From NCBI RefSeq assembly GCF_024228315.1, contig NZ_CP100454.1, positions 806,001 through 870,000 on the forward strand: DNA of 64,000 bases, given 5' to 3'. A program made the position numbers and the translations under genes. This stretch comes from Halomarina pelagica (GTDB lineage Archaea > Halobacteriota > Halobacteria > Halobacteriales > Haloarculaceae). Positions 17,749 through 61,728 of this stretch are shown piece after piece (position 1 is the first letter of the stretch; each line of letters begins with the position of its first letter). Below the pieces are notes generated by a model. It had not been told where the DNA came from. It worked only from the letters and a program-made list of their open reading frames with translations, and searched no databases.

Positions 17749-17990
17749 TCCGTACGTTTATATCCGAGAACGGGGCCAGAGGCCCCATGACGTGACTTCC
17801 GTCGTGGGGCGCTCCGCGGTTGTGCGACGCCACGCCTCACGAACGCGGCCGCGGCGTCGCCTGTCCGCCAGGACGGTTTGCTGCACTCGCTCGGCAGTCG
17901 CGTCGGCGACCGCCTCACTCGCTGGCAAAACCTCCGCTGGAATCGCGTCCCGTCCCCTCGCTCCGCTCGGGGATTCGGCGCGTCCGTCGG
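17749..17990 (+). repeat. Intergenic repeat copy R4 with possible small RNA at its 5' end
   Basis: The first ~115 bp match 39361-39474 closely. Shared parts are TCCGTAC, a TATA-like TTTATA (17757), a hairpin around CCAGAGGCCCC (here GGGGCC/GGCCCC, perfect), and arms GCGACGCC...GGCGTCGC enclosing about 25 nt. The later part (GGCAAAACC, then CCCTCGCTCCGCTCGGGGATTCGGCGCG) is a diverged copy of the module found after prf1 and hisB. The layout, a promoter followed by two conserved stems, suggests a small non-coding RNA. No conserved protein is encoded. Confidence 0.55.
17757..17763 (+). promoter_or_regulatory. TATA-like box inside repeat R4
   Basis: TTTATAT, conserved in position with TTTATAAT at 39369 in copy R3. 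It would direct transcription to start at about 17785, near the conserved hairpin. Confidence 0.45.
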
Positions 17991-32416: not shown

Positions 32417-32550
32417 ACCGCCACCTTTTGCCGCGGGAGCGGCCTTCGGCCGCTCCCTGGCAAAATCTGGACCAAAACCGCGCCTCACCTCCTTCGGAGG
32501 TTCAGCGCGTCCGCTCCTTCACTCGCTCCGCTCGCTCAGTCGCGGCGAGA
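32417..32550 (+). repeat. Stop-codon-proximal repeat R1 (after prf1)
   Basis: Module A runs CCACCTTTTGC, an inner 10-bp stem GGGAGCGGCC/GGCCGCTCCC with 3-nt loop (32435-32457), then TGGCAAAA; outer arms TTTTGCC/GGCAAAA pair at 32426-32432 and 32459-32465. Next comes CTGGACC, then module B, AAAACCGCGCCTCACCTCC with a TTC-loop hairpin and GCGCGTCCGCTC. CCTTTTG begins 8 nt after the TAA of prf1. Copies occur at 39049, 39480, 33652-33782 (minus) and 61540-61728 (minus). Confidence 0.8.
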
Positions 32551-33679: not shown

Positions 33680-33782
33680 GCCAAGGAACCCGTGAGAGCC
33701 GAAGGCTCGAACGGTGACGCGGGCTTTTGGTCCTGATTTCGCCAGGGAGCGGCCGGAGGCCGCTCCCGCAGCAAAAGGTGGC
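33680..33782 (-). repeat. Stop-codon-proximal repeat R5 (after ferredoxin gene)
   Basis: On the minus strand the TAA of ferredoxin is followed by GCCACCTTTTGCTGC, then the stem GGGAGCGGCC/GGCCGCTCCC (loop TCC), then TGGCGAAAT, GGACCAAAAG and a hairpin GAGCC-TTC-GGCTC. Module A matches R1 and R2 closely, but the second hairpin is a different sequence with the same shape. The element lies in the same direction as the ferredoxin gene. Confidence 0.75.
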
Positions 33783-39048: not shown

Positions 39049-39310
39049 GACCACCTTTTGCCGCGGGAGCGGCCTCCGGCCGCTCCCTGGCAAAACCTGG
39101 ACCACCGCCGCGTCGCATCGCGACGCGGCGAGCAATCGGAACGCGAAGCGTTCCGATGACAAAACCGCGCCTCACCCCCTCGCTTCGCTCGGGGGATTCG
39201 ACGCGTCCGCTCGCTCGGCGCTTCGCGCCTCGCTCACGGCCGGCGCTGCCGGCCGTTCGCGGTGTCCACGGGACTCGGAGAGTCCCGCGCTCCTCACGGG
39301 TGCTGCGCTG
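39049..39310 (+). repeat. Stop-codon-proximal repeat R2 (after hisB)
   Basis: Module A is nearly identical to R1: CCACCTTTTGCCGCGGGAGC, stem GGCC/GGCC with TCC loop, then CTGGCAAAACCTGGACC. Two extra hairpins follow, an 11-bp stem CGCCGCGTCGC/GCGACGCGGCG (39106-39130) and a 10-bp stem ATCGGAACGC/GCGTTCCGAT (39135-39157). Module B (AAAACCGCGCCTCACCCCC, GGGGGATTCGACGCGTCC) and module C (GCCGGC...GCCGGC, GGGACTC/GAGTCCC) come next. The insertion of whole hairpins between modules shows a modular build. Confidence 0.78.
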
Positions 39311-39360: not shown

Positions 39361-39605
39361 TCCGTACCTTTATAATAGAGGACGGGACCAGAGGCCCCGT
39401 GACCTGACGCTTGTCGCGGGGTGGCTGCGGTTGCGCGACGCCACGCCCCGCGAGCCGCCCGCGGCGTCGCCTGCACGCCCACGTTTTGCCGCGGTCGCTC
39501 GCTGCGCTCGCTCCCTGGCAAAACCTGGACCAAAACCGCGCCTCACCCCCTCGCTCCGCTCGGGGGATTCGACGCGTCCGCTCGCTCCGCTCGCGGTGCG
39601 AAACG
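39361..39605 (+). repeat. Repeat copy R3 with TATA and possible small RNA
   Basis: The first ~115 bp match 17749-17863: TCCGTAC, TATA-like TTTATAAT (39369), CCAGAGGCCCC, TGAC-TGAC, then arms GCGACGCC...GGCGTCGC. From 39480 a module-A-like part (ACGTTTTGCC...CTGGCAAAACCTGGACC) and module B (AAAACCGCGCCTCACCCCC...) follow. The first part has its own TATA box and conserved stems, so it could specify a small RNA, with the second part as a terminator-like tail. Confidence 0.55.
39369..39376 (+). promoter_or_regulatory. TATA-like box inside repeat R3
   Basis: TTTATAAT, conserved with TTTATAT at 17757. Transcription would start near 39398, close to the CCAGAGGCCCC hairpin. Confidence 0.45.
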
Positions 39606-41242: not shown

Positions 41243-41257
41243 CGCGCCGGGATCGGT

Positions 41258-41476
41258 TCAGTATCCGCCGCCCTCGCCTTCGCCCTCGCCTTCACCGCCG
41301 CTTTCTCCCTCACCTTCGCCTTCGCCGCCGCCCTCACCTTCGCCGCCGCCCTCACCGCCCCCTTCACCCTCCCCTTCTCCCTCACCCTCTCCGCCGGGGG
41401 TGGTACAGCCGGCGAGCCACGCGAGCCCTCCCGTGCCCGCGAGCGCGACCCCGCGGAGCAGTCGTCGTCTGTCCAT
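41258..41476 (-). CDS. Tiny lipoprotein with Gly-Glu repeat tail
   Basis: A 72-residue protein with the signal MDRRRLLRGVALAGTGGLAW and lipobox LAGC. After the cysteine, about 48 residues consist almost only of Gly and Glu in repeated GE and GGE units, ending in GGGY. The gene is real by its signal and start. Such a strongly negative, flexible surface chain would be a polyanion at the membrane. DNA of the tail is a degenerate repeat (GAGGGCGAAGGC-type units). Confidence 0.62.
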   Translation of the reverse strand: MDRRRLLRGVALAGTGGLAWLAGCTTPGGEGEGEGEGEGGGEGGGEGEGGGEGEGEGESGGEGEGEGEGGGY

Positions 41477-60735: not shown

Positions 60736-61413
60736 TCACGGCGCGTCGGACCGTCCCGCGAGCGACCGCAACGATCTGAGCGACCGCAACGATCGGGTTC
60801 GGACGCCACACTCCCCGCGGTGCTCGCAGGGCGTGCACTTATCCCGGTTGCGCGTCCGCGGCGGCGGTCCGTCGAGGCTCGCGGCGGTGCGCACCGCCCG
60901 CCGGTACAGCCTCGTGCGGCGGGCCGTCAGTTCCACCTCGCGGACCACCCCGTGGGTCGGGTACTCGACGTAGGCGCGCTCGACCGTCGTCTCGCGTTCC
61001 CAGGCGAGCGCCTTCGCGGCGGCCACCGCCCGGACGGTCTGTGGTCGCCAGACGCCGCGCTCCGGCGGCACGCCCGCCGAGACGACGCTCGGTGCGAGCG
61101 GCTCCTCGATCACCTTGTGGGCGATCCCGCGCGCACGCCGTCCTTCGAGGAACGCGTCCCGGACCGGGGGGTCAGCGAGCGCCTCGAACGCGTCGATCCG
61201 TGCCTTCGATCGCCCGAGCGCGATGCGGTAGCGCGTCGGCGGGACGGCGATCGGCTCCGCCGTGAGGTCGGTCGCCGGGTCCAGCAGTTCCTCGTACCGA
61301 AACGCCAGCGCGTGGCGCTCGTCGCGCTCGGGCGGGTCGGTGCCGTCCCGCCGGCGGTAGTACAGCTTCCGCGGGCAGTAGGCGGCCAGCGCGAGGTCGG
61401 TGAACGCGTGCAC
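60736..61413 (-). CDS. Cas4-like PD-(D/E)XK nuclease family protein, stand-alone
   Basis: A 225-residue protein with the Cas4-type start AFTDLALAAYCPRKLYYRRRDG and a C-terminal cysteine cluster (DKCTPCEHRGECG near 190-202), which in Cas4 binds an Fe-S cluster together with an N-terminal Cys. The nuclease core is uncertain: an ExK pair is not clear (VERAYVEYPTHG where EYK would be expected). The tail has the repeat SLRSLRSLRSLAG, from a 12-nt-type DNA repeat. No CRISPR array or cas genes are in the window. GTG start. Confidence 0.7.
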   Translation of the reverse strand: MHAFTDLALAAYCPRKLYYRRRDGTDPPERDERHALAFRYEELLDPATDLTAEPIAVPPTRYRIALGRSKARIDAFEALADPPVRDAFLEGRRARGIAHKVIEEPLAPSVVSAGVPPERGVWRPQTVRAVAAAKALAWERETTVERAYVEYPTHGVVREVELTARRTRLYRRAVRTAASLDGPPPRTRNRDKCTPCEHRGECGVRTRSLRSLRSLRSLAGRSDAP

Positions 61414-61728
61414 GGGGCTATCTGGTCCCGTTCCGGTACTTGAACCTACGCCGCGATCGCGTCGCGCCGGTCGGGGTCGTCGACCTCGTCCCGGACGCGA
61501 CTGTCGCTATCGCGTCGCGTCGCATCGTCCCGAGTCGTCGCGCGAGTAGCGCGGGACTCGAAGAGTCCCGCGGACACCGCGAACGGCCGGCACTGCCGGC
61601 CGTGAGCGAACGAAGTGAGCGAGCGGACGCGCCGAACCCCCCGAGCGAAGCGAGGGGGTGAGGCGCGGTTTTGATCGAGCTTTTACCAGCGGATCGCCCG
61701 AAGGGCGATCCGCGCAGCAAAAGGTCGG
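61414..61728. other. 315-bp spacer, mostly repeat R6
   Basis: Between the Cas4-like gene start and the HTH gene stop. It holds R6 and a shorter palindrome-rich part (CGCGTCGCATCG-type). No gene. The Cas4-like promoter must lie within its last ~100 bp. Confidence 0.55.
61540..61728 (-). repeat. Stop-codon-proximal repeat R6 (after HTH gene)
   Basis: On the minus strand, the TAG of the HTH gene is followed by CCGACCTTTTGCTGC, an 11-bp stem GCGGATCGCCC/GGGCGATCCGC with a 3-nt loop (61689-61713), then TGGTAAAAGC. Module B (AAAACCGCGCCTCACCCCC...GGGGGG) and module C (GCCGGCAGTGCCGGC, GGGACTC/GAGTCCC) follow. The inner stem differs entirely from R1/R2, but pairing is kept: strong evidence for structure conservation. 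Confidence 0.78.

Follow-up and report, generated by a model that had tools for sequence, protein, structure and literature searches.

The window, the whole 64-kb stretch of DNA analysed here (64,000 nucleotides from Halomarina pelagica), contains exactly four exact matches to the motif CCTTTTGC, at 32424 and 39054 on the plus strand and at 33778 and 61724 on the minus strand. Dinucleotide-shuffled windows held a mean of 0.17 matches, and none of 100 shuffles reached four. The initial annotation had placed this motif 5-8 nt behind the stop codons of four unrelated genes and in the direction of each gene, and all four sites were confirmed, with the first base of the motif 8 nt past the stop of aRF-1 (prf1), 5 nt past that of a ferredoxin gene, 6 nt past that of hisB and 5 nt past that of an HTH gene. 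NCBIfam models identified the first three as aRF-1, haloarchaeal ferredoxin and HisB, and gave no name to the HTH gene.

Each match forms part of a hairpin. R1 (32420..32477, plus strand; covariance model (CM) score 81.4 bits, RNA fold z -6.9), 3' of the prf1 stop codon, consists of an outer CCA/TGG helix, a TTTTGC...GCAAAA base and an inner stem. R5 (33725..33782, minus strand; 71.1 bits, z -4.7) lies 3' of the ferredoxin stop, R2 (39050..39107, plus strand; 68.7 bits, z -7.5) 3' of the hisB stop, and R6 (61669..61728, minus strand; 64.8 bits, z -7.3) 3' of the HTH gene, a position at which orthologues in several families also carry a hairpin. The flanks around the inner stem are shared by the four copies as originally described, and the inner stem of R6 is indeed unrelated in letters to the others yet perfectly paired. 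With the covariance model we detected a fifth strong copy, R3 (39478..39535, plus strand; 79.2 bits), which lies directly 3' of a small RNA gene and has no stop codon ahead of it, and a weak sixth copy 3' of a second small RNA gene (17870..17942, plus strand; 35.4 bits, E 5.3e-07 in the window).

A second module follows the hairpin. Its start, AAAACCGCGCCTCAC, had been reported in three copies and is exact in R1 (32474..32488, plus strand), R2 (39161..39175, plus strand) and R6 (61658..61672, minus strand); it is also exact in R3 (39532..39546, plus strand), and a degenerate form with three mismatches to AAAACCGCGCCTCAC is present in R5 (33714..33728, minus strand). The two extra hairpins noted inside R2 were located as a twin-hairpin cassette between its two modules (39104..39160, plus strand), and other copies have comparable cassettes at the same place. 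Cassettes of this kind, of about 55-60 nt, were seen at comparable sites of the hairpin chain in this window (39104-39160) and at five other loci in Halomarina and Halolamina (L036, L046, L062, L064 and L103). When the window was searched with Rfam, tRNA alone reached its gathering score; names obtained near R2-R3 at a relaxed threshold were unrelated chance matches far under their gathering scores. Elsewhere in the window, a 12-nt tandem repeat occupies 41257-41392, and its minus strand would encode a Gly/Glu-rich tail; the open frame that holds it has a lipoprotein-like start.

The initial annotation proposed that structure rather than sequence is kept in these repeats, and took an alignment free of paired-base changes as evidence to the contrary. 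Paired changes were abundant. We aligned 28 copies without gaps (alignment A1) and counted 61 double-change cells against 23.7 in shuffled alignments, and the covariation score was 0.256 against 0.100, with neither value reached in any of 500 shuffles. Shifting the pairing partner by 1-3 columns abolished the signal. The base TTTTGC/GCAAAA and the outer helix are fixed or covarying, and the inner stems can be totally different while remaining paired. The strict pattern used to collect copies, TTTTGCNGC...NTGGYRAAA, itself fixes base pairs by construction; copies found without it show GC, AT, TA and CG at base pair 5, and orthologues of the R6 gene have the base lengthened to TTTTTTC...GAAAAA. 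Beyond the TTTTGC base, the 156 strict copies, drawn from several genera, have an additional outer helix with strong covariation: positions -4/+4 are CG in 81 copies, GC in 31, AT in 26 and TA in 3, and are paired in 91% compared with 46% expected, while positions -2/+2 are a conserved C opposite C.

The observation is real and far larger than four copies. A covariance-model search, as had been suggested, returned 77 loci in H. pelagica and 74 in H. halobia, a member of the same genus. The strict pattern had 42 matches in the H. pelagica genome and its reversal none. All copies of both genomes lie on the main chromosome, an arrangement with chance probabilities of about 2e-9 and 8e-13 respectively, with none on the other replicons, and none of the 77 and 74 copies lies inside a gene. 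To place the copies relative to genes we used our own gene calls, from a gene finder seeded with haloarchaeal codon usage; a version trained on the longest open reading frames was discarded because it called antisense frames. These placements refer to the stretches around copies, that is, to loci picked for holding hairpins, and the covariance model had been trained on strict copies.

The 5' neighbour gene ends toward the hairpin at 61 of the 77 loci in H. pelagica and 55 of the 74 in H. halobia. A stop codon in the direction of the gene lies within 70 nt ahead of 46/77 and 47/74 copies, mostly at 6-11 nt, compared with 0 and 2 copies that have a stop within 70 nt on their 3' side (sign test, ~3e-14 and ~4e-12). 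A scatter without relation to stop codons or gene direction, named beforehand as the outcome that would count against the proposal, was therefore not what we found; the copies are tied to both genome-wide. The claim that the repeat sits right behind stop codons held for 93 of the 151 copies (distances 5-66 nt, mode 6-11 nt, with a T4-T6 tract present). The remainder comprised 30 copies directly past a small RNA, 16 past a divergent promoter, with the start codon 17-67 nt away (mostly 45-67 nt), and 12 others. In H. pelagica, the SRP RNA (RF01857) ends at position 1493 of locus L206 and the T4 of a hairpin begins 14 nt further on; one H. halobia copy has the same flank, and both copies count among the 12 others. 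In other genera, 31 of 64 copies lie 3-10 nt past a stop codon and two lie about 6 and 14 nt past intact tRNAs. Since copies also follow small RNA, SRP RNA and tRNA genes, the common factor is the end of a transcription unit and not translation.

Six cases had appeared to adjoin a tRNA, and just the two above follow an intact one; the other four (L076, L079, L101 and L121) show an apparent truncated copy of a tRNA 3' part 114-170 nt past the intact tRNA, followed by the hairpin. These truncated copies are perhaps the leftover of an integration event. We also considered the idea that many gene ends lacking the hairpin carry a T4 tract. This idea was dropped, as the apparent cases were nearly all variant hairpins: at other gene ends in the hairpin loci, a T4 past the stop is rare unless a variant hairpin is present.

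Between R2 and R3 lies a small RNA gene. Its TATA box (TTTATA) is at 39369..39374 (plus strand), and it extends over 39399..39483 (plus strand), with a GTG-ACC-TGA mini-ORF at its predicted 5' end followed by pseudoknot-type helices, and ends directly before R3. A second gene of the same kind, with TATA box, ATG-ACG-TGA frame and pseudoknot-type helices, lies at 17757..17875 (plus strand) ahead of the weak sixth hairpin. Across the H. pelagica and H. halobia loci we collected 63 copies, all with the same promoter and a common TATA box, a GGG(A)CCAG...CCCGTG-type element and two interleaved helices. In 63/63, a start codon lies at an invariable distance of 28 nt from the TATA centre, with a single codon and then a stop codon after it; this frame takes nine sequence forms. 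The promoter and this conservation suggest that the small RNA is transcribed. Pair counts in alignment A2 gave 98.9% paired positions, and the number of double-change cells was 13 where shuffles gave 2.2. Covariation is seen at five pairs of the first helix. In the second helix a single pair covaries and the rest hardly varies, which leaves the pseudoknot proved only in part. Neither the window search nor the relaxed search near R2-R3 gave an Rfam match to this RNA. Its core pattern matched 36 times in H. pelagica, seven times in genome G238 and 0-2 times in other genomes, and is frequent in only part of the genus. The GGGACCAG...CCCCGTG element in front of the small RNA is also present (61413-61430, minus strand) ahead of the start codon of a cas4-like gene that lies downstream of R6, and other families have similar motifs ahead of this gene. 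The element might serve as an operator or as a start signal.

Taken with these positions, the structure suggests to us, at a probability of about 0.55, that the repeat is a signal for the end of a transcription unit in which a U4-U6 tract is fused to a structure-conserved hairpin. In archaea it is established that terminators are built around a T4-T6 tract where a transcription unit ends. A termination role is favoured by the stop-linked orientation bias, the placement at the ends of RNA genes, the covariation, the conservation at orthologous genes and the T4-T6 tract itself. RNA polymerase would transcribe the gene and then the T-tract, and the resulting U4-U6 tract, mostly 3-11 nt past the coding end or past the 3' end of a small RNA, SRP RNA or tRNA, would be bound by aCPSF1/FttA and the transcript released there. 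The hairpin starts within the U-tract, its constant base being kept in sequence, its outer helix in pairing, and its exchangeable inner stem being free to vary if largely paired. On the sense strand, a chain of further hairpins (the second module and more) continues for 100-250 nt past the first, and any transcript that read through might fold into this chain, providing a second stop or protection of the 3' end. The sense strand of each element has a single T-tract of at least four, and the opposite strand has two (TTTTGGTCCAGCTTTTGCC). Because the near-palindromic hairpin places TTTT tracts on the opposite strand, we propose that they could also stop transcription arriving from the other side.

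Archaeal T-tract terminators are not known to require a hairpin. A conserved hairpin in which T4 is paired to A4 is therefore not explained by termination alone, and would be an extra, acting as a second stop, as protection of the 3' end or as a mark read by a factor. Known aCPSF1/FttA-dependent terminators share with the Halomarina element a T4 or longer tract on the sense strand right past the transcription unit; those systems have a T-run alone and no strict need of structure, whereas in Halomarina the tract forms the 5' arm of a hairpin that covaries and has a fixed base and a swappable stem (PMC7237163, PMC8716108). With a T5C insert in Haloferax, 95% of transcripts stop (PMC7237163). In Methanococcus, U4 is the shortest tract bound by aCPSF1, and two tracts give the best binding and termination (PMC8716108). 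Bacterial intrinsic (Rho-independent) terminators also combine a GC-rich stem with a T-run at gene ends, but there the T-run follows the stem; the Halomarina TTTT precedes the stem and pairs with the AAAA behind it, and no T-run follows on the sense strand, so we rejected this identity.

The length of the hairpin chain would also suit a 3' UTR structure, for example one bound by a protein or an RNase, that governs how stable an mRNA is and how it is processed or translated; transcription would then end farther downstream. The Haloferax 3' UTR has a median length of 97 nt (PMC7237163), and haloarchaeal 3' UTRs are reported to be able to control translation (PMC2636863). The same hairpin nevertheless follows RNAs that are not translated (the small RNA, SRP RNA and tRNAs) and also lies past divergent promoters, and its U-tract is kept at 4-6 T. 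We consider this explanation improbable. The initial interpretation is supported in part: placement at transcription-unit ends, orientation, conserved structure and modular build all hold. Its terminator half has the best support among the readings, and its mobile half does not.

Two further observations weaken the terminator reading: the 16 copies that face a divergent promoter, and a strand bias in the inner-stem mismatches. C-T/T-C mismatches number 328 against 27 A-G/G-A, and A-C 76 against 44 G-T. The bias is wrong for a folded sense RNA and looks as if the antisense strand, with tandem G-A pairs, were the folded one. For the fixed T-G and G-T pairs close to the base, pairing is better in sense RNA, and the comparison of G-T with A-C gave a mixed result that points both ways as to which strand folds. 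A 2x2 TC/TC mismatch recurs in the inner stems on the sense strand, also in the second module and the GC-rich tail, and corresponds on the antisense strand to tandem G-A pairs and a GAA loop; this form presumably resembles the very stable d(GCGAAGC) hairpin. Strand-biased G-A mismatches would fit a folded DNA strand, and thus a DNA-level mark, in which a protein attached to the folded or duplex palindrome keeps neighbouring transcription units apart or shapes the organisation of the chromosome. Confinement to the main chromosome and occurrence past gene ends and promoters alike, with the start codon mostly 45-67 nt away, would suit such a mark. The strong orientation bias relative to transcription and the wobble-compatible pairs at the stem base argue against it, and we regard it as the least probable of the explanations considered.

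Conservation bears on whether the repeat is a signal or a mobile element. Among the stop-linked genes of H. pelagica, 34 of 46 have a hairpin at the H. halobia orthologue (identity at least 70%), and in 26 of these 34 pairs the inner stem differs, sometimes as a 10-bp stem in one species and the 60-nt type in the other; R6 (GCGGATCGCCC vs the 60-nt type) and hisB are examples. Of 30 loci fetched for the R6 gene, about 18 (counted by eye) carry the hairpin; they represent at least five families, and their tracts run from T4 to T6. For prf1 (R1), the hairpin is present at just one of the 29 other loci fetched, and orthologues outside the genus mostly lack it. Some positions are therefore old and others recent, and the R1 position is not ancient. 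Several hairpin genes in other genera are orthologues of Halomarina hairpin genes. The 77 H. pelagica copies have 64 distinct inner stems, and 20 of the 77 share an identical inner stem with an unlinked locus; stems thus seem to have been exchanged between copies.

A mobile or selfish palindrome of the REP, MITE or PATE type, inserting at gene ends and promoter edges with a transposase acting in trans, would account for these identical stems, for the tandem arrays and inserted twin-hairpin cassettes, and for the patchy copy number within the genus (79, 77, 24, 16, 14, 12, 7 and 1 per genome), and the T-tracts and promoter edges could serve as insertion targets. This explanation is at odds with the restriction to the main chromosome, the lack of copies in genes, the positions kept at orthologues and across families, and outer bases that covary and are not fixed, and we think it unlikely. 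REP/BIME palindromes associated with RAYT transposases are likewise short, multi-copy, imperfect and extragenic at gene ends, but share sequence, whereas the Halomarina hairpin covaries in structure, has positions conserved across families and is not tied to a Y1 transposase. Y1 (RAYT/IS200-type) transposase genes (Y1_Tnp) numbered three in H. pelagica and none in H. halobia or genome G162, and we did not assign the hairpin to this class. The PATEs, MITEs and SMRs of Haloquadratum are also non-coding, palindrome-bearing, multi-copy haloarchaeal elements, and the twin-hairpin cassettes are similar to palindrome insertions of the SMR type (PMC3119063). Those elements are known by sequence similarity and strain-specific insertions, and their copies would be expected to be alike over their length; the Halomarina hairpins keep orthologous positions and differ in their stems.

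The initial proposal of a freely spreading non-coding mobile element is accordingly unsupported. Some copy-and-paste, for example by gene conversion, is still likely, given the shared stems at unlinked loci and the lineage-specific expansion. The pattern, as judged from sequence comparison, is that of a functional signal expanded in one lineage with apparent stem exchange, rather than a free transposon.

The hairpin is not confined to Halomarina. Among the 391 genomes of the class that were scanned with the pattern, 86 contain the family, and the reversed control gave 0-3 matches per genome; some families are rich in matches and others nearly empty. In named genomes nearly all matches were haloarchaeal, in Halomarina, Halorussus, Halobacterium, Halarchaeum, Halococcus, Halolamina, Haladaptatus, Natronorubrum, Halobellus, Halobium and others, and two bacterial matches are about the estimated chance level. 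A more far-reaching reading, which we hold tentatively and judge possible rather than probable, is that these are clade-wide archaeal transcription-boundary hairpins read by their structure, with a fixed base for a dedicated factor and stems exchangeable without loss of function, joined in Halomarina with a multi-copy, promoter-driven small RNA bearing pseudoknot-type helices and a two-codon leaderless frame.

How archaeal transcripts end is still debated, and haloarchaeal terminators have been described mainly as T-runs that require no structure. Transcript-end signals are a known kind of element; a covarying hairpin with a swappable stem within one, in archaea, was found nowhere described, and a literature search with poor coverage of subscription journals and preprints gave no earlier description of the family. 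The small RNA with its conserved start, one-codon, stop frame would be a second, separate novelty. If the transcription-unit-end reading is true, haloarchaea would possess a structured termination or 3'-end signal that is directly testable by stem swaps, and this signal would explain some of the repetitive 'spurious ORF' DNA found in haloarchaeal genomes.
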